This document shows positions 9,871 through 35,875 of a stretch of DNA of 35,875 nt, piece by piece. The stretch is from a virus. Positions within the stretch are counted from its first letter, which is position 1. The number at the start of each line of letters is the position of its first letter. The translations under genes and the position numbers were made by a program. The DNA lies in the IMG/VR virus record IMGVR_UViG_3300021197_001900, positions 1-35,875 of that record; one strand, written 5' to 3'. The notes under the pieces are model-generated. The model worked only from the letters and a program-made list of their open reading frames with translations, had not been told where the DNA came from and searched no databases.

Positions 9871-10307
9871 TCGACATTGCCAAAGCAGCAAGTCCGGCCC
9901 CGAAGCAGAACAACCTTTTGGTTGTTGTGTTGCTTGCTGCGTTGGCGTTTTTAATTTGGGATAGTGACTGGCTTTCGCGTTTTAAGCCAGATCGCGATGA
10001 GCAGGTCGTCAACAGCAAAGTTGCAAACGTGTTGCTAATTAAGTCTTTGGAGGGAATGACAGCGGACCAGGCTCAGGTTGCTGCAAGCGTTGTCCCTGAT
10101 GAGATTTGCGACCAGCGGGGCATTGGCTTTCGCACGCTGTGGCAAGACGCGGACATCCAAAACGCAGACGAATGGGTTCGGCAACTTTTTGGATTCTACG
10201 CTGATGACGCACCTTGCATGGCAACGATGGACAAGCGTGGCAACCGAAAAGTGCAACCACTGCCATCGTCAATTTCAGAGTTCCGAAAAGTTATCGGAGC
10301 AAACTGA
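9867..10307 (+). CDS. Single-span membrane-anchored protein
   Basis: 146 residues from TTG 9867, overlapping the upstream stop (TTGA). Residues 17-31 (LLVVVLLAALAFLIW) form one membrane span after a short basic N-terminus. The remaining roughly 110 residues are soluble, with two Cys (EICDQRG and APCMAT). I do not recognise the family. It overlaps the protease start by one base (TGATG), so the two are translationally coupled, which suggests a joint role at the envelope. Confidence 0.65.
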   Translation: MIDIAKAASPAPKQNNLLVVVLLAALAFLIWDSDWLSRFKPDRDEQVVNSKVANVLLIKSLEGMTADQAQVAASVVPDEICDQRGIGFRTLWQDADIQNADEWVRQLFGFYADDAPCMATMDKRGNRKVQPLPSSISEFRKVIGAN

Positions 10308-11053
10308 TGCAAGATGGATCAAAAGGCTACATCGCCAGAAACTTTGCAGAGCAACCGTTTGGTTCTGTCGTTGAACCATACGAAAAACGCCACTCGCGTG
10401 ATACCTGGAAAGACTTGCTGGAGTTGCAAGATCAAAACAGGACATCAGCCCTTGATGTGATGCTCAGTTCAAATTTTAAATCTTACGACCAAAAGAGCCT
10501 TCCATATTGTTGGTCATTTGGCGTCTGTGCTCCGGTCGCTGTTGCTATGGCACGCGCTGGTCATGATCCAATTCCTCATTTGTCTGCCAGCTACGTTGCA
10601 GGCAAAGTCAAAAACTGGAAGCGAGTCGGCGGATGGGGAATGCAAGCCGTCGAGGGATTGCTGAAATACGGATGTCCAACGACTGACGTTTTTCCCGAGG
10701 CATCAACAAACCGCTCGCTTGCTAACACTGACAAAGTTAAAGCAAGTGCAGCACTGCACAGCATTGTGCAGTTTGAAGAAATACAAAGCAACGACTTTGA
10801 CGGTTGCATCAGTGCGTTACTTGATCCAATCAATCCAGCATGTGGCGTCAGTATGGCTTTCAACTACTGGCGACATCTTGTTTTTGCGTGCAAGGCTTGC
10901 TGGCATCCGCAGAAGGGTTGGGGAGTAGTGATACAAAACTCTTGGGGATCGCGTTGGGGCGACCAAGGAAGAAAAGAATTGTACGGTTCTAAAGCAATTG
11001 CTCACGAAATGATCGTAGTACGTTCAGCAAAGGTTAGGAAAGATGGTAAATAA
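10307..11053 (+). CDS. Papain-like (C1-type) cysteine protease
   Basis: 248 residues from ATG 10307. The catalytic Cys is in SLPYCWSFGVCAPVAVAM (about residue 68), which matches the papain 'C-W-[AS]-F' helix. The catalytic His lies in YWRHLVFACKACW, and the Asn in GVVIQNSWGSRWGDQG, the very characteristic NSWG box. All three catalytic elements are present, in order and with normal spacing for a compact C1 domain lacking a propeptide. There is no signal peptide. Neighbours on both sides are small membrane proteins, so it may act in lysis or on virion or envelope proteins. The activity is well supported; the target is inferred. Confidence 0.85.
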   Translation: MQDGSKGYIARNFAEQPFGSVVEPYEKRHSRDTWKDLLELQDQNRTSALDVMLSSNFKSYDQKSLPYCWSFGVCAPVAVAMARAGHDPIPHLSASYVAGKVKNWKRVGGWGMQAVEGLLKYGCPTTDVFPEASTNRSLANTDKVKASAALHSIVQFEEIQSNDFDGCISALLDPINPACGVSMAFNYWRHLVFACKACWHPQKGWGVVIQNSWGSRWGDQGRKELYGSKAIAHEMIVVRSAKVRKDGK

Positions 11054-12161: not shown

Positions 12162-12776
12162 ATGGCTGACAACTTGCGAATATCGGTCAGGCTGTCGTAT
12201 CCATACGTCACAGATGAAGCCGGGTGGGATCCTTGCTATAGGCAAGACGGATCGCCCTATGATAACTCAGCATACGATGCCTCGCAGGGGTTTGGCTTCA
12301 CGAGTTATAGCGCGGGACAATTCCGCAACAGGAACAGCAGCAACGCACCGCAACTCGCAGGCATGTACTTCACATCGACGAATGGGCACACGTTCCGTCT
12401 GGACCTTCCTGATGGTGCAGGCAAGTACAAAATATTCTCTGCTCACGTTGACCAGGCAGCCGGCCAGACTACCGGGTGGGATTTTACAGACGGCAGTGGC
12501 TCAACGATTGTGAGCGTGACAGGTGCGACGACATCAAGCACATACCGAGACATCAACAGCAACAGCAAGGCAGTTAGCGGATTCAGTGCGAGCGGTGAAA
12601 CATACGTTGAGCACACGTTCTCAAACGATCACCTGCTTATCGTTCGCAATACGTCGCTCAACTCTGGCAACGGTGTCCTCTCTGCCGTGTGGGTCGAAAA
12701 AGCTGACGATGCAAGCATGAGGCGGACAAACACGAGCGGAAACTTTCAACAGCTACACGGTGGATTAGACGGATGA
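12162..12776 (+). CDS. Beta-rich virion-surface-like protein
   Basis: 204 residues from ATG 12162. Composition is Ser/Thr/Gly/Asn-rich and strongly beta (GHTFRLDLPDGAGKYKIF, STIVSVTGATTSSTY, ETYVEHTFSNDHLLIVRN), ending in a VLSAVWVE strand. That is the look of a jelly-roll, carbohydrate-binding or discoidin-like domain of phage fibres and decorations. No collagen repeats or peptidase motif. It is probably made with the next gene, whose start overlaps its stop (ATGA), and may be a receptor-binding or decoration protein. Inference from composition and context. Confidence 0.55.
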   Translation: MADNLRISVRLSYPYVTDEAGWDPCYRQDGSPYDNSAYDASQGFGFTSYSAGQFRNRNSSNAPQLAGMYFTSTNGHTFRLDLPDGAGKYKIFSAHVDQAAGQTTGWDFTDGSGSTIVSVTGATTSSTYRDINSNSKAVSGFSASGETYVEHTFSNDHLLIVRNTSLNSGNGVLSAVWVEKADDASMRRTNTSGNFQQLHGGLDG

Positions 12777-13930
12777 AGTTAAAAGTAAAGCAGGGCGTTA
12801 CGTCAAAACTCGTGCGATTCTTTGTCTCTGACAGCACTGCGACTGATGGCAGGGGCAAGACTGGGATTGCGTACAACGCCAGCGGATTGTCGGCCTACTA
12901 CATCGGCGAGGGTGATTCGACTCCAACACAGATCACGCTCGCCAGCGGTGCAGTAGGCGTTTGGTCATCTGGCGGATGGTCAGAAGTGAGTGCGAGCTAC
13001 CTGCCTGGCGTTTATGAAGTCGGGCTTCCTGATGCTGCAATTGATGCAACCAGCAATTCAGTCGTTGTCATGCTCAAGGGGGCGACAGACATGGCACCAG
13101 TGCTGATTGAGGTTCAACTCGTTGCCATTGATGAAAGCAATGCAACCACACTCGGACTGACAAACCTTGATGCTGCAATCAGTAGCCGCAGCACTTTTGA
13201 CCATTCAAGCAACCAAGTAACAACAGACAGTGCAAGCCGAACCGCTGCACAGGCTGACGTTTCTGCACTTGCAACAGCGTCAGAGGTTGCCAGCATCGAC
13301 GCATTAGTAGATGAAATAAAATCGGTAACCGACAACTTGCCGAATAGCGGAGCGCTCACCGACATTGCAACCGCAGCAGCAGTCGTAACCATTGATTCTG
13401 TTGCTGATTCAATTCTGGTCATTGCAAACAAGCTTGACAGCGCAATGGAGGCAGACGGTCTTGTATCTAGATTTACGACCAACGCTCTTGAACAAGCACC
13501 AAGCAGCAGTGGTGGTGACGCGACCGCGAGTAATCAGTCAGCAATCATCACTCACTTGACGGACATCAAAGGCAGCGGGTTTGCATCGACCGACACTCTT
13601 GAGGCGATTCGAGATCGTGGCGACTCAGCATGGACTACTGGCGGGAGCGGGAGCGGGATCTACTCACTGACAGTCACTTGCCAAGACAGCAGCGGAAGTG
13701 CGGTCGCAAATGTCAGAGTCAACATCGACGGAACAACAACAACGCTGGTCACAAATAGCAGCGGTCAATGCGTCTTCAACCTGGACGCTGGCGATTACTC
13801 GTTGGTCGCGAGCCCACCCAGCGAGTTTAACACTCCGGCAGATACAGCAGTTACTGTTTCTGCCGATGGATCGCAAACAATAACGCTTACTCAAGCATCG
13901 ACCTCCGGTTCAGCAGGGTGGGTCGGCTGA
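12773..13930 (+). CDS. Fibre or adhesin-like structural protein with C-terminal Ig/CarboxypepD-like domain
   Basis: 385 residues from ATG 12773. The N-terminal 110 residues are beta-rich (KLVRFFVSDS, ASGLSAYYIGEGDS, LPGVYEVGLPDAAI), like the attachment domain of baseplate upper proteins. A Ser/Ala/Asp-rich helical stretch follows (about 120-270), which could be a trimeric stalk. Residues about 297-385 form a beta-sandwich: VTCQDSSGSAVANVRVNIDG, NSSGQCVFNLDAGDYSLVA, VTVSADGSQTITL. This is the pattern of the carboxypeptidase-regulatory or Big-type fold used for surface binding. Likely a fibre, baseplate or decoration protein. Family of the N-terminus not certain. Confidence 0.6.
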   Translation: MKLKVKQGVTSKLVRFFVSDSTATDGRGKTGIAYNASGLSAYYIGEGDSTPTQITLASGAVGVWSSGGWSEVSASYLPGVYEVGLPDAAIDATSNSVVVMLKGATDMAPVLIEVQLVAIDESNATTLGLTNLDAAISSRSTFDHSSNQVTTDSASRTAAQADVSALATASEVASIDALVDEIKSVTDNLPNSGALTDIATAAAVVTIDSVADSILVIANKLDSAMEADGLVSRFTTNALEQAPSSSGGDATASNQSAIITHLTDIKGSGFASTDTLEAIRDRGDSAWTTGGSGSGIYSLTVTCQDSSGSAVANVRVNIDGTTTTLVTNSSGQCVFNLDAGDYSLVASPPSEFNTPADTAVTVSADGSQTITLTQASTSGSAGWVG

Positions 13931-24170: not shown

Positions 24171-27100
24171 CGGAAAAATTGGATCGCTTGTTTACGATGT
24201 CATCGCTGACACTCGGCAGTTCACAAAAGGACTTATTCCTGCAAAAAAAGAATTGACTGCGTTCAATCGCATGATGATCAACACTCGCACGCCAATGGAA
24301 AAGCTTGGCATTGAGTTTGATGGGATTGCGAGAGTAGCACGAAGCGGTCTTGCACCAATCGATGCACTGTCTCGGACAGTTGGACAGCTGGCGGTTGAAA
24401 CGAAAGGCGGTGGTCGAGAAGCTCGAGAGTTCGCACAAAGCTTAAGAAAACAAGCAGGTGCAATTGGAGGTGCAAATCTTGGAACGCAGAGGTTAACGGA
24501 AGCAGAAAAAAACCTTCAGAACCATTTGCGTGCAGTCGCAGACGCAAGTGAGCAGGAAGTTAATTCGCTTAGGGCAAAGCGAGCAGAAACGCTTCTCGCG
24601 GAACGAGCAGCTAGGCAAGCCGCTGCTGCTGCTGCACAACAAGCAGAAGCAGACAAAAAAATTGCAGCTGAAGCAAAGAAAGCAGCAGAAGCGTTGCAAA
24701 AGCGTAAAAAAGCAATTGCCGAGGCAGCATCTGCCGCAACTAAAGCTCGGCAGCAGAGCCGCCAAAGAAGCATTGACTCTGCGAAGGGAATAGCTAGCCA
24801 GAGTGAAGCAGCAAGATTGTCTAGAGTACGCAGCGAGATTGAAGCAACCGTCCCAGCAGCAAAAAAGTTGGCAACGCGAATGGCAGAGGTTCGGCAAGAA
24901 TTTGCTGCTGGAAATATCTCGCAGGAAGCCTTTGAAAGAGTACAGCGTAAAATTGCACAAGAATTGCACGAAACTACTGCTGCCTACGCTAAAGAACAAC
25001 AGCAACTACAGCAAAACGCACAACAACTTTCTCGCGTCAAATCACTTGTTCAAAGCCTTGTTCCGCAGCAAGATCGGTTGCAACAGACAGCAAGCGAACT
25101 GCATAGCGAATACAGAAAAGGAAATATTACATCAACAGAATATCAGCGTGCGATTAAGCATCTTCGCGAAGAGTTTAACAAGACTACCGATGCATACGAC
25201 AAAAAGCAAAAGCAGTTGCAACAAAACCAAGAGCAACTCGCGCGTGTTAAATCACTTGTCGCAAGTCTTGTTCCGCAACAAGATCGTTTGCAGCAAACAG
25301 CAAGCGAGCTTTTTACAGAGTACAAAAACGGAAATATTACTCTAGCGGAATACAGGCGTGCAATAAAGCACGTTCGTGAAGAAACCTACAAAACCACTGA
25401 TGCATACGAGAAAGATCAAAAGCAGTTACGCGAAAACGCACAACAACTTTCGCGTGTTAAATCACTTGTTCAAAGCCTTGTTCCGCAGCAAGATCGATTG
25501 CAACAAACAGCAAACGAATTGCATAGCGAATATAAGAAAGGCAATATTACATCAGCGGAATATCAGCGTGCGGTTAAGCACCTTCGTGGCGAATACAACA
25601 AGCTTGACCCTGCTGTCCAAGAAGCAGACGCTAGATTGCAAAGAGTGCGTGCAACGGTTGAACGCACAATCACGCCAATGCAAAAGCTCGAAAAGGAACA
25701 ACGAGAACTTTCTCAAGAGTTTAAACGCGGCACCATCAGTGCTCAGGAGTATCGTCGGTCGTTAGCAATGCTGATGCGGCAAAAAAGAGAACTTTCGCCG
25801 ACGTGGAACAAAACCACTAAAAACGAAAAAAAGCTAGGTGCTCAATTTGCAGCAATTGCAAAGCATGTTGCTGGAATAACACTTGCATACAAAGCTCTAG
25901 ATCAAGTTCGCCAAGGTTTGCAAGATGCTTTTGACATGGAGCGAGCGACGAAACAGTTTGAGATTTTTACAGGAAGTGTTCAGCAGTCAACACGCATCAT
26001 CGCAGGCTTGCGAGACATCGTTGCTAGGACTCCTCTGACTTTTGCGTCAGCGCAGCAAGCAACAAGAACGATGATGCAGTATGGCGTTGCGTCAGAGGAT
26101 GTTTTATTGCGGTTGCGTCAGATTGGCGATGTCAGCGGCGGCAACCATGAAGCGTTGCAGAGACTTGCACTTGCAATGGGCCAGGTCACTGCTAACGGCA
26201 GGTTGCAAGGCCAAGAACTTCGTCAACTCATCGAAGCTGGCTTCAACCCTTTGCAAAGCATTGCAGAGAAAACTGGCAAAACGATGTTTGAGTTACGAGT
26301 TGAAATGGGAGAGGGCAAAATTTCCGCCGAGGACGTTGCAAAATCTTTGGACGCTGCAACGTCAGCAGGTGGAAGGTTTGCAGATGTGCTCGAAAGGATC
26401 GGAACAGAAACGAATGTAGGTAAAATTGAACGACTTCGAGGGCAGTTGCAACTGCTTCGACAGGACTACTTTGAAAATCTAACAGATGGACTTGGTGACA
26501 TAGGAGGCAGCGTTGCTGATGACCTGACTGAGCAACGCGCGGCAGCTAAAAAAGCAGTGTCCGACCTTCGGAAGGGTTCTGGTGATGGATTGAAAGAGTT
26601 TGCGATGGCAGACTTGTTTTCTGGAGGTTTAAAGCAAATGGCAGGGATCATTGCTTTAACAAAAGAACTGAACACAGAAGAGGAAATCAGGTTTAAGCTT
26701 GTAAAGGAAATTTCAAAGGAGCAGGCATTTGCTGATTCCGAACAAGGCAAAGCCTTAGCCGAGCGTATCGGTCAGTTAAAAAAAGAAACAGACTTGCGCA
26801 AACGTTTTTTGGAGTTTTCAAGTCAGTTTTCTGATCCTACTAACGAGTTAAAATCTGAATTTGACCGTGAGGAAGAACTGCGAAATGCCGACGCAGCAGG
26901 GGTACCGGAAAAAGAATTGGAAATGCTTAGAAAAGCATTAAACGATTCAGCGCGACTTGAAGGTTTAGAAGCGATGAATGAAGAAATGAAAAAAGTGTTC
27001 GACTTAGGCCAAGAATCTATAACCGAAACAAGAAATAAACGAACGGACAAGGATCAAGCGAAATTTGATTCTGATGAATTTATTGACAAACACGGGTTTG

Positions 27101-28537: not shown

Positions 28538-29785
28538 TTGTCAGGATTCTCATTCGCCAAGAAGCAAGACATACAGCGCGTGTTGAAAATGATCAACGCG
28601 CCGATGCATCACACGATGATGCCGCAGCACACAACTGCGCCGATAGATTACAACACGGCAGGGTATGTCTACCTGACTGGCAACGGAGGAATTCCTGCTC
28701 GAAACGGTCAAGTCTGTGGTGTTGCAGAATGCACTCCATACTTCATTGATAGAGAAACAAATGAACTGACTGAGTTGCTCAAGAACAACGGTGAGTCGCA
28801 GACTCATACTGTTCACAACATCGCGACAGACAGCGTTCCTGCGAACACTTACATTAATGCTCTTCGCACCTTCGACCGAGTCGTTGCGTTGAAAGAGTTT
28901 TCTGCTGGAGCAATGATCGCTTTTTATGTTCCAGAGGATTATAACCCTCCGACTGCAACCTATTGGTATGTTTCAATAACAGCAACGAGTAATCCCGTTG
29001 GTCCAGAAGACGATCCCCCAATGCCGGTCGAAGGGGACAACACAATTTTGTACAAGGGCCGAAGCTACGACAGCTACTCTAACGGTGCTGCTTACCATAC
29101 CTACGTTTGGATAATACAAAGTTGCAACAGCATCGACATGGGTGCGTGGCTTGAGAGCACCGGACCCCAGTTAATCGATGATTGGGTTGCTGACATTTAC
29201 CAAGGCGACGATGGAAATAAGGAGTGGATAAGAAACGCGACAACTGTAACGAACAGTTTACGCGATACGCACATGACGGTTATCGACACTGAGTTGACGC
29301 AACCTACTGATTACATAGAAAGTGACATCATCGCGTTGCTTGACGCAGACGATTGCGATCCTGATGAACTTTGCGCAAACAGTGAAAGTCCATCATTGAA
29401 CGTCATCGGTCGTTCAATGAAAGTTGACATCATTGCTAGGACTTGTGGCGTAAATCCAGTTCCACAAGAATCAAACAACCAAGTAACTGTATATGACACA
29501 ACTGGCAGTTTCTTGTATGGCAGACGATTGCAGGATGCAAAAGGTCGGTATGGCATTGCTGCCTACATGCAGTCAGATGGCGAATACGATTGCCACTGGA
29601 TGATTACTTGGCTGGACTGGTTCGATCCCTTGCAGGTAGTTCATGATGTAATCATTGGAGAAAACGGGATCACGATTGAACGATACAAGGTAGACGTTTG
29701 GCGAAAGTGCAAGCTTCCTGTTGAATTTGTGGAAGGCGAAACCTGCGAAGGTGATTACTACATTAATCCAAGCGGAGCAACGTAG
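28538..29785 (+). CDS. Minor tail / tail-tip protein
   Basis: 415 residues from TTG 28538, 2 nt after the preceding stop. A beta-rich protein with many aromatic residues: VYLTGNGGIPARNGQVCG, FSAGAMIAFYVPEDYNPPTATYWYVSITATSNP, YHTYVWIIQSCNSIDM, YGIAAYMQSDGEYDCHWMITWLDWFDPLQVV. No peptidase or glycosidase signature is visible. It contains a cluster of acidic residues (LLDADDCDPDELC), possibly metal binding. Likely a tail-tip or receptor-contact protein on grounds of position. Confidence 0.6.
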   Translation: MSGFSFAKKQDIQRVLKMINAPMHHTMMPQHTTAPIDYNTAGYVYLTGNGGIPARNGQVCGVAECTPYFIDRETNELTELLKNNGESQTHTVHNIATDSVPANTYINALRTFDRVVALKEFSAGAMIAFYVPEDYNPPTATYWYVSITATSNPVGPEDDPPMPVEGDNTILYKGRSYDSYSNGAAYHTYVWIIQSCNSIDMGAWLESTGPQLIDDWVADIYQGDDGNKEWIRNATTVTNSLRDTHMTVIDTELTQPTDYIESDIIALLDADDCDPDELCANSESPSLNVIGRSMKVDIIARTCGVNPVPQESNNQVTVYDTTGSFLYGRRLQDAKGRYGIAAYMQSDGEYDCHWMITWLDWFDPLQVVHDVIIGENGITIERYKVDVWRKCKLPVEFVEGETCEGDYYINPSGAT

Positions 29786-30402
29786 TGCCTCTAATTTATC
29801 ACAACAACAAACCGTTGTTTGTTAATAATAAAATCGCATTCGACAAAGCTTGCTGCTGCAACAATTGTTCTCGCGCATGCATCGTTGTTCGTTTAGCTTG
29901 GTCAGCGATTAGCGTTACTGGCAGCGAACCGTGGGAACCTGTGAACGCTGGTACTTCGCCACCAGGCCCAACATTATCGTCGATGGAATCGACAATGAAA
30001 TGGCATGCTCACAGTTACGACACAATATCAACCAACGCACCTAGAACTGGTTATCACACACATGTTTGGTTGATGGAAGTCAAGTTCAACGCATTTGAGC
30101 AGGCAACCGGCGTGCCAGCGTTACTTCCGCTTGATAGGTACGTTGCAGAACTAGAAGCGTGGAAAAACAGTTTGCTGCAATCGATTACAGGCGACGAGTA
30201 TGTCTGGCAACTCACGCCAACGACTGAAGTCATTGGTGGCAATGAATGCCTGACAACATTCTATGCAGAAGAATGGGCAAGGCCGCCGCTCGAAATGTCA
30301 GGAGTCGCAAACCTGTCTGGCATACCGTACTGGGAAGGTGCAGATTTGTTTGGGCCGGACTTTGATACCAGTTACCCTGACTGCACGGCATACCAGCCAT
30401 AA
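29785..30402 (+). CDS. Tail-associated protein with Cys cluster
   Basis: 205 residues from GTG 29785, overlapping the previous stop by one base (TAGTG). The N-terminus carries a dense Cys cluster (KACCCNNCSRAC, residues 21-32), unusual for a virion protein and suggestive of metal binding or disulfide linkage. The rest shares words with the preceding protein: RTGYHTHVWLMEVKFNAF resembles GAAYHTYVWIIQSCNSIDM, so the two may be partly homologous. No enzymatic motif. Probably a small tail-tip component. Confidence 0.6.
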   Translation: MPLIYHNNKPLFVNNKIAFDKACCCNNCSRACIVVRLAWSAISVTGSEPWEPVNAGTSPPGPTLSSMESTMKWHAHSYDTISTNAPRTGYHTHVWLMEVKFNAFEQATGVPALLPLDRYVAELEAWKNSLLQSITGDEYVWQLTPTTEVIGGNECLTTFYAEEWARPPLEMSGVANLSGIPYWEGADLFGPDFDTSYPDCTAYQP

Positions 30403-30404
30403 AC

Positions 30405-31652
30405 ATGAGTTGCAAAACAAACACATCTGTACCTTCTGGGCCAATGCCATTGTTGATTCTTCAACAGCGGCAACAAATTTGCGATGCCTGCGAGCACAAC
30501 AAGCATGGGGTTTGCAAGATTATTTCACGAAGGCATACATCAGCAAAAGCAATCATTGCTGATGGTATAAAGCGGGGCTCGCTAAAATGCCCGGTTGCGA
30601 AATGGAATTCAATCAAACGCATTTGCCCAGGTTGCAATCGACGAATTGAGGTCGATGAAATTAGCAATGTATGTCGCTGGTGCGATGTAAAACAAAAGTG
30701 TGGGGGTCGCGGAGGTGCAGCGGGATCGAAATTCCGAAAAGGCAATCCGTTTAGTTTGACGCAGGGAAAAGCGATGTGGATTTCAGCAGAAGACTTGGCA
30801 AGAGATGCAGTTCGGTTGTCGCAGTTGATACCAGCAGAAACTAAGGCAATTGTTGGCGTTGCAAGATCAGGCATCACGCCAGCAAACATAGTTGCAACAA
30901 TGCGACATCTGCCTCTGCTGGCAGTTCGGCAAACGCTCAATGATGTTATTGAGGTTGGTAATGGTTGGCGTATGGGTGGCAATAACCATGTTAAAATCAA
31001 GCCACATGAAATGGTTGTTGTTGTTGATGATACGGTGATGACCGGCAACTCATTCATTTCAATTCAAGACATTGTCTCGCGAACATTTCCAAGACACAAA
31101 ACAGCAGCGTGCTACGTCAATCCGTTGGCTAAGAAAAAGCCGGACATCTGGATCAGAGAACTTCCTGCACCGCACATTCTTGAATGGAATATATTTAACA
31201 GCGTCTACAGTCCAAGTATCGCGGTGGATTTTGACGGAGTGCTCTGCGACGATTGCCCACTAGGTGATGATGATGACGGGCGAAAATACATTGAATTTTT
31301 GACTAACGCTCGACCAAAGTATGTCGTTCGCAAAGCCACGATACCTCTGATTGTAACCGCAAGACTTGAAAAGTATCGAGCGATAACAAATGAGTGGTTG
31401 CAGAGACATGGGATAACGTGTCACAGGCTTGTGATGCACCCAGCAGCAACGCTTGCGGAAAGAAGACGCGATGACATTGCTGCATTTAAGGCAAGAGAAT
31501 ATTTAGGTTGGGTGACAAGTCATCGAGCTAATCCAGCACCAGCTATGTTTGTTGAGTCGGAGGATCGCCAAGCGCAGCGAATTGCACAATTGTCTGGGAG
31601 GCTAGTTGTTTGCCCCTCGTCTCGGCAGGTCTATGGAGATCCTCGGCAATGA
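30405..31652 (+). CDS. Zinc ribbon - phosphoribosyltransferase - HAD-like fusion protein
   Basis: 415 residues from ATG 30405. Residues 26-95 have Cys pairs of zinc ribbons (CDACEHNKHGVCK, CPGCNRRIEVDEISNVCRWC). Residues about 125-260 form a type I phosphoribosyltransferase: AIVGVARSGITPANIV as the PPi loop, then EMVVVVDDTVMTGNSF (about 202-217), the PRPP-binding signature with its DD pair. Residues about 270-400 are a HAD-like domain opening with SIAVDFDGVLCDDCP (nucleophile Asp and DxD-type start), then IPLIVTARLEKYRAI with the Thr of motif II. Such PRTase-HAD fusions act on nucleotides or sugar phosphates. It begins the late cassette of sugar-related genes, but its substrate is not evident. 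Confidence 0.8.
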   Translation: MSCKTNTSVPSGPMPLLILQQRQQICDACEHNKHGVCKIISRRHTSAKAIIADGIKRGSLKCPVAKWNSIKRICPGCNRRIEVDEISNVCRWCDVKQKCGGRGGAAGSKFRKGNPFSLTQGKAMWISAEDLARDAVRLSQLIPAETKAIVGVARSGITPANIVATMRHLPLLAVRQTLNDVIEVGNGWRMGGNNHVKIKPHEMVVVVDDTVMTGNSFISIQDIVSRTFPRHKTAACYVNPLAKKKPDIWIRELPAPHILEWNIFNSVYSPSIAVDFDGVLCDDCPLGDDDDGRKYIEFLTNARPKYVVRKATIPLIVTARLEKYRAITNEWLQRHGITCHRLVMHPAATLAERRRDDIAAFKAREYLGWVTSHRANPAPAMFVESEDRQAQRIAQLSGRLVVCPSSRQVYGDPRQ

Positions 31653-32203
31653 GAACAGCAGTCACGCTTGTCGCTAAAGGTCCATCGGCTAAAAACGCAC
31701 TTGCAATTGTGCGTGATGGAGATGCTATCGCATGCGTTAACGATGCTGGCATGCTGCTGCCAGGCGAAGAGATTGATTACGTTTTTTTTAGTGATGCAAA
31801 TGTATTCCCACTGCTAGAGCCAATGCGTGATCGCTTTGAGCGTGCCATCAGTCGAAAGATGAATCAAGCGCAATTGGAAAGCATGCCTGACTGGCTTGTC
31901 ATGCGACACAGCATGTACGACGACATCAGTTGTGCAGGCGAGCACGATGAACTTTGCCAGCGTGTGATACTTGGTGGAATTATGCACCACCATAGTACGC
32001 CTGGTGCGTTGCACTGGCTTGCAAAGTATGGGAAGTACAACACGATTCGAGTCACCGGCGTTGATGGTGGAACACGTTACGCCAATAACCTGTCTGCAAC
32101 TGGTGCAGCAAAGTATGACCTCGATGAGTGGGCAACGGTAACGAGGCGGGTTGGTGACATTTGCTCGCGAGTTTATGGAACGGTTATCGAGTGGCATTCA
32201 TGA
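31649..32203 (+). CDS. Sialyltransferase / DUF115-like glycosyltransferase candidate
   Basis: 184 residues from ATG 31649, overlapping the fusion gene stop (ATGA). It opens TAVTLVAKGPSAKNALAIVR, which matches the nucleotide-binding 'vxxGxGPS' loop of GT42/GT29-like sialyltransferases and DUF115 (Maf) proteins, followed by DAIACVNDA and YVFFSDANV, the usual '.N.a......d..f..D' stretch. Further on, HHHSTPGALHWLAKYGKYNTIRVTGVDGG is like the '(S/T)G..a...A...G...i...G.D' box of the same group. It is shorter than most members (usually above 250). Its partner gene makes an activated sugar, so transfer of a CMP-linked sugar is a coherent reading; the acceptor is unknown. Confidence 0.55.
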   Translation: MRTAVTLVAKGPSAKNALAIVRDGDAIACVNDAGMLLPGEEIDYVFFSDANVFPLLEPMRDRFERAISRKMNQAQLESMPDWLVMRHSMYDDISCAGEHDELCQRVILGGIMHHHSTPGALHWLAKYGKYNTIRVTGVDGGTRYANNLSATGAAKYDLDEWATVTRRVGDICSRVYGTVIEWHS

Positions 32204-32865
32204 AAGTTATCATTCCAGCCAAAGCATGCAGCGAGCGAGTGCATGACAAAAACTGGCGACCGTTTATAGATGATTTTTCGCTTGTAGACATTACGATCAC
32301 TAAGTTGATTGCTGCTGGATTCAACTCGCAAGACATTATCGTAAGCAGCGAATGCGAAAACAGATTGCAGGCAGCGGTAAAAAGGCACGGCATCGTGCCA
32401 ATGCTGCGGGATCTTGCGATGTGCTGCAACGATCTCTCGCTTTGCACATGGATACGCAGCACAGTTGAGCAAGCAGGTATCGAAGGTGATGTCGCGTGGG
32501 CCCAGGTCACCAATCCGGCATTTACGCAATACGCACATTGCGTAAGCACATGGGAAAGCGTCAGACACTTCGCAGACTCGCTGGTTGTTGCCTACCCGGT
32601 CAAACGCTATTTGATGATGGAAGCAGGTAGCTGGATGCGACCAATCGGTTGGTCTTTTGGTGAGCACCACACAAAGAGTCAGCAGTTGCCGATGATGTAC
32701 GAGATGCCGTTCACATTTTCAATACTGTCGCAAGAATCAATCGAGCGATCAGGCTACCACATTGGGCTCAGACCGCATTGGTTTGTTGCAGATGGCAAAT
32801 GTATCGACATCGACACAGAGGACGATTACAGGGCAGCACAGGCGTATTATTCAGCAACTCACTAG
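32200..32865 (+). CDS. CMP-sugar synthetase-like cytidylyltransferase (NeuA-like)
   Basis: 221 residues from ATG 32200, overlapping the previous stop (ATGA). The N-terminal MKVIIPAKACSERVHDKNWRPF matches the 'IPAR.gS.r...KN' nucleotide-binding loop of acylneuraminate cytidylyltransferases, with Lys-Asn kept and the Gly replaced. Then come DIIVSSECENRLQAAVKRHGI, a strand plus helix as in NeuA, and WAQVTNPAFTQYAHCVSTWE in place of 'qpTsPl....di...i'. The C-terminus, GKCIDIDTEDDYRAAQAYY, is the family's typical end, with metal-binding Asp in DID. It should join CTP to a 2-keto-3-deoxy sugar such as a nonulosonic acid. It ends the cassette and is followed by a strong terminator. Confidence 0.75.
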   Translation: MKVIIPAKACSERVHDKNWRPFIDDFSLVDITITKLIAAGFNSQDIIVSSECENRLQAAVKRHGIVPMLRDLAMCCNDLSLCTWIRSTVEQAGIEGDVAWAQVTNPAFTQYAHCVSTWESVRHFADSLVVAYPVKRYLMMEAGSWMRPIGWSFGEHHTKSQQLPMMYEMPFTFSILSQESIERSGYHIGLRPHWFVADGKCIDIDTEDDYRAAQAYYSATH

Positions 32866-32893: not shown

Positions 32894-32931
32894 CCCCGCA
32901 GGTTGCCCTCACCAGCCTGCGGGGTTTTTTT
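32894..32931 (+). terminator. Intrinsic terminator after the sugar cassette
   Basis: A perfect 9-bp GC-rich stem (CCCCGCAGG 32894-32902 with CCTGCGGGG 32916-32924) and seven T. It lies 29 nt after the CMP-sugar synthetase-like gene and closes the long late operon. Confidence 0.92.
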
Positions 32932-33138: not shown

Positions 33139-33152
33139 TACCCATACACATT

Positions 33153-33233
33153 GCTGGGTCGCACACATACGAAAGGTGGTGCGACCGCTGACGAGCGGCG
33201 TGGCGATCACGATTCGGTGCGACCCAGCTTTTT
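33153..33233 (+). terminator. Switch-like terminator with alternative hairpins
   Basis: GCTGGGTCGCAC (33153-33164) pairs perfectly over 12 bp with GTGCGACCCAGC (33217-33228), followed by five T. But its inner eight bases (GGTCGCAC) can also pair with GTGCGACC at 33179-33186, because GGTGCGACC occurs twice (33178 and 33216). The two pairings exclude each other. Between them lie CCGCT/AGCGG and CGTG/CACG hairpins. Terminator versus antiterminator control of the three small genes downstream is possible. Confidence 0.65.
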
Positions 33234-33279
33234 AATACAGAGTTACGGTAGTTTTTACGTTTTTTAGTGAGGATCAACA

Positions 33280-33909: not shown

Positions 33910-33919
33910 TCAGCACTGT

Positions 33920-34130
33920 CATTCAGGTTGACCCCCACCATACCGGTGATGCTCGTCATTCAGGTTGACCCCCACCATACCAGCCATGCTCGTCATTCAG
34001 GTTGACCCCCACCATACCGGCGATGCTCATCATTCAGGTTGACCCCCACCATACCGGCGATGCTCATCATTCAGGTTGACCCCCACCATACCGGCGATGC
34101 TCGTCATTCAGGTTGACCCCCACCATACCG
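33920..34130. repeat. 37-bp tandem repeat array (5.7 copies)
   Basis: Five full copies and a 26-nt partial copy begin at 33920, 33957, 33994, 34031, 34068 and 34105. The conserved part is CATTCAGGTTGACCCCCACC followed by ATACC; variation is confined to GGTGATGCTCGT versus AGCCATGCTCGT or GGCGATGCTCAT. There is no unique spacer and no gene. The array abuts the next, unrelated array without a gap. Confidence 0.92.
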
Positions 34131-34479
34131 CTGAGCTCCCAGGATCCCTGACAGCATCAACCACTGAGCTCCCAGCTTCCTGGCAGCATCAACCACTGAG
34201 CTCCCAGGATCCCTGGCAGCATCAACCACTGAGCTCCCAGGATCCCTGGCAGCATCAACCACTGAGCTCCCAGGATCCCTGGCAGCATCAACCACTGAGC
34301 TCCCAGCTTCCTGGCAGCATCAACCGCTGAGCTCCCAGCTTCCTGGCAGCATCAACCACTGAGCTCCCAGGATCCCTGGCAGCATGAACCACTGAGCTCC
34401 CAGGATCCCTGACAGCATCAACCACTGAGCTCCCAGGATCCCTGGCAGCATCAACCACTGAGCTCCCAGCTTCCCAGGC
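34131..34479. repeat. 32/33-bp tandem repeat array, left copy
   Basis: Eleven direct copies beginning CTGAGCTCCCAG. Two unit types alternate irregularly: 33 bp with AGGATCCCTGG and 32 bp with AGCTTCCTGG, each followed by CAGCATCAACCA. Each 33-bp unit holds a GAGCTC palindrome and a CCAGG/CCTGG stem. All frames across it are open, giving spurious reading frames. The same units reappear at 35530-35875 in the same orientation. Confidence 0.92.
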
Positions 34480-34583
34480 CGTTTGGGGGGGCATGCCCCC
34501 AAACGCAACAAACCCTGCCAGGGTATCCCCTGGCAGGGTTTGTAGTTTGTTAGTTTGTTAGTTTGTTAGTTTGTTAGTTTGTT
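34480..34583. terminator. Two strong hairpins and an 8-bp tandem repeat at the 3' end of the minus-strand gene
   Basis: The first hairpin has a 10-bp stem (CGTTTGGGGG 34480-34489 with CCCCCAAACG 34496-34505). The second is a perfect 16-bp stem (34508-34523 with 34528-34543) with loop TATC, containing CCTGCCAGG/CCTGGCAGG. Then follow about five copies of TTAGTTTG up to the gene's stop codon. On the minus strand these lie just downstream of the gene and probably end its transcript. Confidence 0.75.
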
Positions 34584-35427
34584 AGCTGGGTTTGTGCTCG
34601 ACACTAAACCCGCTGGCAATGGCAGCATCACGTTTGTCGTTTGATGCTGATTTAAGTTTTAAACCGATAACCTTCCCACCCCTGGGATCGGTAAACCTTA
34701 AATCGGTTTCATCACCATTAATAACCTCAAACCCTTCCCAGGTTTCTGGCAAGGTTTGTTTGCCAGATCGATTCCCGCTAAACTTCCCAGGGTTATGAAA
34801 CACGATGGCAACATTACCCCCTTGCGATAGAATCTTAAGCGCAGTTTGTTCGTTTGTTTCTGAGCGGGAAAACGTTACCCAGTAGTTAGGCAATAATACG
34901 CCAAACCGTTTAGCATGCTTTGTATAATCGTAGAATTGACAGTTTGGGTGGTTCTCAATTATACCACTGAGCTCCCAGGCGATATCGCTAAAAACGTTTG
35001 GACGGCATGCCAGGTTTAAACCCTTACGCTCAGCTTTGTTTTCCCAACGTGTTAGCTCAGCATCAAACCTATCGTAAAACCACTGACGTTCCCGATAATA
35101 TAAAACGTTTTTAGCTATCCTGGCAGCTTTGATAGTTTTAAAAATGGCTCCCATTCCGGTCTCATCCAGGCATGCATTAATGCATGCCTCCGATGCATCG
35201 GTACAAACGTTACCGATTCCCGATTGCCTGGCAGGGGATATCGATAAACCACAAGTAAGAAACCCCCTGCCAGTATTCTTCGCTAGTTTGGCGTTTGAGT
35301 CTCCATCAGCTAACAAACGTGAAACCTTAGTTTCCATATTCAAACTGGGGATACAAACCACTGGGTTTGTACCTTCCCAACGTGAAACAAACGGAACATT
35401 AGCAGCGGCGATAGTTTCGAGCAACAT
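34582..35427 (-). CDS. GP88/DUF7227-like protein of unknown function
   Basis: 281 residues from ATG at 35427, chosen because a promoter lies at 35486-35514 and because longer readings would start in the repeat array. TAAGG precedes the start. Features: GLSISPARQSGIGNVCTDAS and EACINACLDETGMG (Cys set, residues about 60-85), KTIKAARIAKNVLYYRERQWF, LNLACRPNVFSDIAWELSG, NCQFYDYTKHAKRF, NYWVTFSRSETNEQTALKIL, GGNVAIVFHNP and INGDETDLRFTDPRGGKVIGLKLK. This matches a phage and plasmid family with 'SDI.WE', 'FYDYTK', 'FSRSE.NE' and 'DGDETDLRF' boxes, which I recall as DUF7227. The gene at 21331 shares the general order and may be a distant relative. It is the only clear minus-strand gene and differs in word use from the rest (frequent CCTGGCAG and CCCAGG), suggesting separate acquisition. 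Confidence 0.75.
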   Translation of the reverse strand: MLLETIAAANVPFVSRWEGTNPVVCIPSLNMETKVSRLLADGDSNAKLAKNTGRGFLTCGLSISPARQSGIGNVCTDASEACINACLDETGMGAIFKTIKAARIAKNVLYYRERQWFYDRFDAELTRWENKAERKGLNLACRPNVFSDIAWELSGIIENHPNCQFYDYTKHAKRFGVLLPNYWVTFSRSETNEQTALKILSQGGNVAIVFHNPGKFSGNRSGKQTLPETWEGFEVINGDETDLRFTDPRGGKVIGLKLKSASNDKRDAAIASGFSVEHKPS

Positions 35428-35485
35428 AGTCTTAAACCTTAAGATGTGGTGATTTGTTACTAGGGGAATCCCAGTAACTGTACGT

Positions 35486-35514
35486 ATTGTTATGGCATCG
35501 GCTAACAATGTCAA
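35486..35514 (-). promoter_or_regulatory. Sigma70-type promoter of the minus-strand gene
   Basis: Read on the minus strand: TTGACA (35514-35509), a 17-nt spacer and AACAAT (35491-35486). The -35 is perfect. The start would lie near 35479, giving a leader of about 50 nt before ATG 35427. This decides against translation starts inside the repeats. Confidence 0.65.
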
Positions 35515-35529
35515 CAGCATTAATAAAAA

Positions 35530-35875
35530 TTGAGCTCCCAGCTTCCTGGCAGCATGAACCACTGAGCTCCCAGGATCCCTGGCAGCATCAACCACTGAGC
35601 TCCCAGGATCCCTGGCAGCATCAACCACTGAGCTCCCAGGATTCTGCCATCAACTGAGCTCCCAGGATCCCTGGCAGCATCAACCACTGAGCTCCCAGGA
35701 TTCTGCCATCAACTGAGCTCCCAGCTTCCTGCCATCAACTGAGCTCCCAGCTTCCTGGCATCAACTGAGCTCCCAGCTTCCTGGCATCAACTGAGCTCCC
35801 AGCTTCCTGGCATCAACCTAGCTCCCAGCTTCCTGCCATCAACTGAGCTCCCAGCTTCCTGCCATCAACTGACCT
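35530..35875. repeat. 32/33-bp and shorter repeats, right copy, to the window end
   Basis: About twelve direct copies of the TGAGCTCCCAG unit. The first few are the 32/33-bp types; later ones are shortened to about 26 bp with CTGCCATCAAC or CTGGCATCAAC. The array runs off the window end, which is probably where assembly stopped. No gene is supported here. Confidence 0.9.

Follow-up and report, generated by a model that had tools for sequence, protein, structure and literature searches.

Two-step ribofuranose transfer by a PRTase together with a HAD enzyme has been described for CriT/CrpP of Hib Bcs3 (PMC10299916) and for the gPRT-PRP enzymes of Klebsiella (PMC11127046). In NeuA of N. meningitidis, roles have been assigned to the residues that deal with the nucleotide, with Mg2+ and with the carboxylate, including Arg165, which binds the sugar carboxylate in a salt bridge (PMC2901514), and the general base of the sialyltransferase CstII is His188 (PMC4202792). 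An Acinetobacter prophage carries epaA-epaB, genes concerned with 8-epipseudaminic acid in the capsule (PMC12053666). The fold classes of the three phage proteins analysed here are known individually; no description of their combination, or of its sugar, was found in the literature.

The window is an entire IMG/VR record (IMGVR_UViG_3300021197_001900) of 35,875 bases from an uncultured tailed phage, with genes for a terminase, a portal, a ClpP-like protease, an HK97-type capsid and a tape measure. On the + strand the tape-measure gene is followed by three predicted tail genes, including that of a tail-module protein with a CCCxxC motif (29785..30402, +), and then by a trio of open reading frames: gene 1 (30405..31652, ATG to TGA, 415 aa), a fusion of a Cys-rich N-terminus, a PRTase and a HAD phosphatase; gene 2 (31649..32203, ATG to TGA, 184 aa), a putative CMP-sugar transferase of DUF115/GT42 fold; and gene 3 (32200..32865, ATG to TAG, 221 aa), a cytidylyltransferase of NeuA/PseF type. 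The ATG of gene 2 overlaps the stop codon of gene 1 as ATGA, and the ATG of gene 3 overlaps the stop codon of gene 2 in the same way; such overlaps are typical of translational coupling. Reading both overlaps in the DNA confirmed the three tightly overlapping genes at 30405-32865 of the original prediction; the starts at upstream TTG codons given for genes 2 and 3 in the list of open reading frames are unsupported by relatives. Because a terminator-like hairpin, read from the sequence as a 9-bp GC stem and seven T (CCCCGCAGG...CCTGCGGGG and T7; 32894..32931, +), lies directly 3' of gene 3, the trio evidently closes the tail operon; no further gene of the operon follows gene 3 in the window.

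Other features were recorded elsewhere in the window. Positions 33010-33146 fold as a cloverleaf-like RNA (-52.5 kcal/mol) with a 7-bp acceptor-like stem, a T-arm with a TTCGATC loop and a long middle stem; ARAGORN found no tRNA there, and Rfam gave a weak mascRNA match only. At 33152-33236 there is a 12-bp perfect inverted repeat (gctgggtcgcac / gtgcgacccagc) with a structured loop inside and TTTTT at the end. Tandem repeat arrays of 37, 33 and 26 bp (33918-34490 and 35531-35872) flank a GP88 gene (34582-35628, minus strand, PF17338, E 4e-37), and the tape-measure gene contains a 210-bp (70-aa) repeat in about 2.8 copies (25007-25586). Positions 12773-13930 and 10214-11053 encode a protein with a carboxypeptidase-regulatory-like domain, immediately upstream of the terminase genes, and a borderline papain-like protease.

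Single-sequence searches of viral contigs and a phage collection with each of the three proteins returned no relatives (one gave short polynucleotide-kinase matches only), and automatic 8-residue patterns were too strict, but a degenerate DNA pattern for the motif S.RV..KN[FWY]RPF succeeded in finding true gene-3 relatives in viral contigs. Four of the contigs found by this pattern carry the same ordered trio and an alignment-based scan added two, giving the order gene 1, gene 2, gene 3 in the window and in six other phage contigs (IMGVR 3300037247_001044, 3300028610_001353, 3300033144_007188, 3300002145_000150, 3300002145_000154 and 3300044806_000237), two of which have a methyltransferase inserted between genes 1 and 2. 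Every contig returned by a gene-2 scan also had gene 3. A 223-kb record encodes a 41% identical gene-3 relative behind a methyltransferase, and a trio is possible there because the contig begins just upstream. For a further eleven gene-3 relatives, which are more distant (23-29%), gene 1 and gene 2 are both missing from the vicinity. On a 7-kb viral contig (L029, 70-2286), a distant NeuA-like gene lies, as judged by eye, between SDR-reductase-like and 2-hydroxyacid-dehydrogenase-like genes, an arrangement that suggests another sugar cassette. The contigs fetched as terminase relatives, which are the kin of the phage, contain gene 3 in no case, and a genome scan with the terminase found distant Pseudomonadota prophages only; the gene-2 profile had no match in 398 Pseudomonadota genomes, an empty result of limited meaning. 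In close relatives where dS could be estimated, dN/dS is about 0.1-0.24 for genes 1-3. The trio is under purifying selection, and synteny together with dN/dS rules out chance open reading frames or decaying genes.

In the window and in its relatives alike, the trio sits after tail genes, and the proteins just upstream of it are Cys-rich in every locus read (L028, L032, L034, L036, L054 and L055). Downstream, the relatives encode a Sulfotransfer_4 protein (E 2e-27) as well as GNAT, cupin, FkbM methyltransferase, GT4-like, Methyltransf_24 and radical SAM proteins. The same slot in a more distant terminase relative (G013, locus L019) is occupied by a Cys-rich protein that is glycosyltransferase-like by eye and has no Pfam match. 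Cys-rich N-termini like that of gene 1 were also seen on other phage enzymes (L019 3087-4244, minus strand; L034 7789-8823; L054 2591-4639) that look like glycosyltransferase, DUF115-like or methyltransferase proteins, as if one N-terminal module had been swapped among phage glycan enzymes.

The product of gene 1 comprises a Cys-rich, zinc-ribbon-like N-terminal part with CxxC motifs (30480..30707, +), a PRTase domain with the PRPP-binding loop VVVVDDTVMTGNS (30756..31208, +; PF00156 at residues 118-268) and a HAD-type phosphatase domain with the motifs DFDG, VTAR, FKA and VES (31212..31616, +). The Pfam match of the PRTase (E 8e-6) is just below the cut-off, and the family profile matches purine PRTases in the PDB at E 5e-8; gPRT and CriT are absent among the PDB profile matches to E 0.1, in a PDB set that may lack the solved entries. 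The core of the PRPP loop is invariant among the phage homologues, which are 36-42% identical over the alignment, and the HAD motifs DxDG, T, K and ES are invariant in phage and bacterial homologues. Weak PHROG polynucleotide-kinase matches were obtained for the HAD domain, and the sole PADLOC match to gene 1 was a weak one to ShosT (E 0.02). The Cys-rich N-termini are variable and partly related among phage relatives, and absent from the bacterial homologues.

Six of the 200 Pseudomonadota genomes searched encode a PRTase-HAD fusion (E 1e-47 to 1e-50), 31-34% identical to gene 1 of the window in the five compared. All six loci are inside polysaccharide clusters (two tested by Pfam, the others by eye), which do not count as six independent cases because five of them look like the cluster of one lineage. 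The pair tested by Pfam encodes a flippase, GT2/GT4 or WecG glycosyltransferases, UDP-glucose dehydrogenase or GDP-mannose dehydratase, and GH16. Fusions in exopolysaccharide clusters are located at L073 5838-6923, L074 7413-8435, L075 7630-8652, L077 7377-8399 and L078 7654-8676, and most of these fusions adjoin a Wzx-type flippase. The PRTase-HAD fusion of the original prediction is thus borne out by the PRTase profile and the invariant HAD motifs, and gene 1, which had been left unexplained, is the part of the trio best linked to glycan synthesis. Because the trio is conserved, has glycan-decorating neighbours and includes a gene with homologues in polysaccharide clusters, it is a real glycan-modification module.

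Gene 2 matches no Pfam family, PF01973 (DUF115) included. Its model from a five-sequence alignment is of moderate confidence (pLDDT 72, pTM 0.75), and the model made without an alignment is poor (pLDDT 41). By VIA-align, the modelled fold resembles those of the DUF115 protein MptE of M. jannaschii (Z 11.8, 148 residues, rmsd 3.3), thiamine pyrophosphokinase (TPK; Z 11.2), CstII (Z 10.8, 170 of 184 residues) and a Pasteurella sialyltransferase (Z 9.4), against Z 6.3 for the next fold class outside this MptE/TPK/GT42 group; Foldseek of the model against the PDB gave no E below 0.001. The gene-2 profile scores 29.4 against eight DUF115 domains, compared with at most 22.1 in 60 column shuffles, and its profile alignment with CstII is full-length but weak (E 0.009, one comparison). 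The invariant residues R105, N31 and Y144 align with Arg129, Asn31 and Tyr162 of CstII, but the family has no invariant His aligned with His188 of GT42, for which D157 or H114, both invariant, could be a substitute. PDB profile matches to antibodies and a dehydrogenase were taken as noise, and a search for PF06002 in 369 genomes did not yield a set of GT42 proteins that could be used. The fold, as modelled, does not choose between a transferase and a pyrophosphokinase (MptE/TPK); a CMP-sugar transferase is favoured because the partnership of gene 2 with gene 3 is fixed.

The gene 3 protein of the window scores 20.2 bits against PF02348 (cut-off 22.6) and matches the PseF model TIGR03584 over its full length at E 1e-8 (35 bits versus a cut-off of 205.7). 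All eight members of the gene-3 family match PF02348 (best 1.7e-10), and PseF ranks first among the NCBIfam models for each of them. NeuA is barely detected when a single sequence is used for the search; the family profile matches the NeuA structures 9t4z (6e-10) and 1EYR of N. meningitidis (1e-9) in the PDB, with Kdo enzymes far worse (E 0.66), and a wider family profile matches 9t4z and 1EYR at 6e-8 and 2e-6, respectively. The invariant residues S11, K17, N18, Q102, D203 and D205 correspond to Ser15, Lys21, Asn22, Gln104, Asp209 and Asp211 of NeuA, and the DID metal motif is invariant in the family. Arg12 of NeuA is replaced by Lys, the equivalent of Lys142 is mostly conserved, and the position of Arg165 is Ser or Gly in the alignment, in which a shifted substitute is possible. 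The C-terminal half has invariant residues of its own (H157, Q161, F171, T172, S174, Y186, H187, G189, P192 and W194). From this sequence pattern we infer that gene 3 encodes a CMP-sugar synthetase with a family-specific sugar.

The folds found are accordingly those of the NeuA class and of DUF115/GT42, in agreement with the original prediction of a NeuA-like gene 3 (PseF at E 1e-8, PDB NeuA at 6e-10) and, as far as the model goes, of a sialyltransferase/DUF115-like gene 2 (Z 9-12 versus 6.3 for the next class). That gene 2 is the matching transferase stands with respect to its fold and to its position side by side with gene 3 in seven phages, but its use of a CMP-sugar was not established, as His188 is missing and MptE and TPK fit equally. 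Nor was the nonulosonic nature of the sugar established, with Ser or Gly in place of Arg165 and no synthase gene in the trio.

The trio contains no gene for sugar synthesis. Gene 3 most likely uses CTP to turn a sugar, perhaps an ulosonic acid obtained from the host, into a CMP-sugar; gene 2, as a minimal one-domain DUF115/GT42-fold protein, most likely transfers that sugar to an acceptor; and gene 1 would add ribose from PRPP with subsequent dephosphorylation, as in the Hib Bcs3 and Klebsiella enzymes, a reaction that we infer because of the domain logic and the homologues in bacterial polysaccharide clusters. Late expression is suggested by the position of the trio at the end of the tail operon after predicted tail proteins. 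The chances appear evenly balanced that the trio is in all these respects a module for glycan modification, coupled in translation and placed last in the late (tail) operon, by which a CMP-sugar is made and transferred and ribose is added. Its product is probably a decoration of the virion's tail proteins or of the host envelope. With the chemistry left as it is, action at the surface of the host (for receptor masking or superinfection exclusion) instead of the virion is a credible choice of target that we nevertheless do not favour: the prophage genes epaA-epaB modify pseudaminic acid of the host capsule (PMC12053666), and the gene-1 homologues have, to judge by their context, a role in polysaccharide clusters of bacteria, but the trio of the window and its relatives is the last part of the tail operon and comes straight after predicted tail proteins.

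Tentatively, and with the balance of probability against it, PRTase-HAD may be one more class of glycan ribofuranosyltransferase, hitherto unrecognised, with a purine-PRTase-like fold, common to phages and bacterial exopolysaccharide clusters; its coupling in phages to a minimal transferase of 184 aa and to a CMP-sugar synthetase whose sugar specificity is new would produce a virion glycan derived from ribose and a CMP-sugar.

It is rather unlikely that, as in a strict form of the original prediction, gene 3 turns a host sugar into a CMP-nonulosonic acid (Neu5Ac, legionaminic or pseudaminic acid), with gene 2 as its sialyltransferase or Maf-like transferase and gene 1 as an incidental neighbour. 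The ranking of PseF first among NCBIfam models for the whole gene-3 family, that of NeuA first in the PDB profile search and the fold match of gene 2 to CstII all agree with such a pathway; Maf-type transferases put nonulosonic acids on flagellin (PMC4065374, PMC11339370), and there is precedent for the modification of pseudaminic acid by prophages (PMC12053666). The residue of the carboxylate salt bridge is replaced in the gene-3 family, however, the PseF score is far short of its cut-off, gene 2 has no counterpart of the GT42 general base, and gene 1 is not incidental because it is conserved as tightly as the pair of genes 2 and 3. Synthesis of a small nucleotide- or cofactor-like compound by a nucleobase PRTase and nucleotidase (gene 1), a pyrophosphokinase-like protein (gene 2, MptE/TPK) and a cytidylyltransferase (gene 3) is improbable, for although MptE and TPK lead the fold matches to gene 2 and purine PRTases are closest to gene 1, the phage neighbours are glycan-decorating, the gene-1 homologues are in bacterial polysaccharide clusters and two DUF115 Asp positions are not conserved across the gene 2 family.

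As a glycan-modification module, the trio would, if the proposal is true, offer a defined and testable case of a phage that makes and attaches an unusual sugar. PRTase-HAD connects it with a question answered only recently, that of how ribofuranose is added to polysaccharides in bacteria, and its reading as a ribofuranosyltransferase predicts that the exopolysaccharide clusters of bacteria contain a new class of enzyme.

Comparison with known systems indicates that gene 1, similar to gPRT-PRP and CriT-CrpP, has its PRTase joined to a HAD phosphatase and occurs in neighbourhoods of glycan genes, but its PRTase is closest to purine PRTases and its domain order is PRT-HAD with a Cys-rich N-terminus; its sequence places it in neither the Bcs3 nor the gPRT-PRP family. 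Gene 2 has the fold of DUF115/MptE, and its GPS, VNDA-like, GxDG and YA motifs follow one another as they do there, but it is only 184 aa long, does not conserve across its family the two Asp kept in most aligned DUF115 proteins, and has its own GGxxxHx(T/S) loop with the invariant H114. With CstI/CstII of GT42 it shares the fold and the aligned Arg129, N31 and Y162, but it has no significant sequence match to them, lacks His188 and has a shorter lid region. Gene 3 resembles NeuA/PseF (PF02348) in its full-length profile match and in the CTP and Mg2+ residues that it keeps, and differs in its sugar-binding half, its very low sequence identity, the changes of Arg12 to Lys and Arg165 to Ser or Gly, and its own conserved C-terminal residues. 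The epaA-epaB genes of Acinetobacter encode other enzymes (no cytidylyltransferase, transferase or PRTase-HAD) and act on the capsule; their likeness to the trio is that of phage-carried genes altering an acidic surface sugar.
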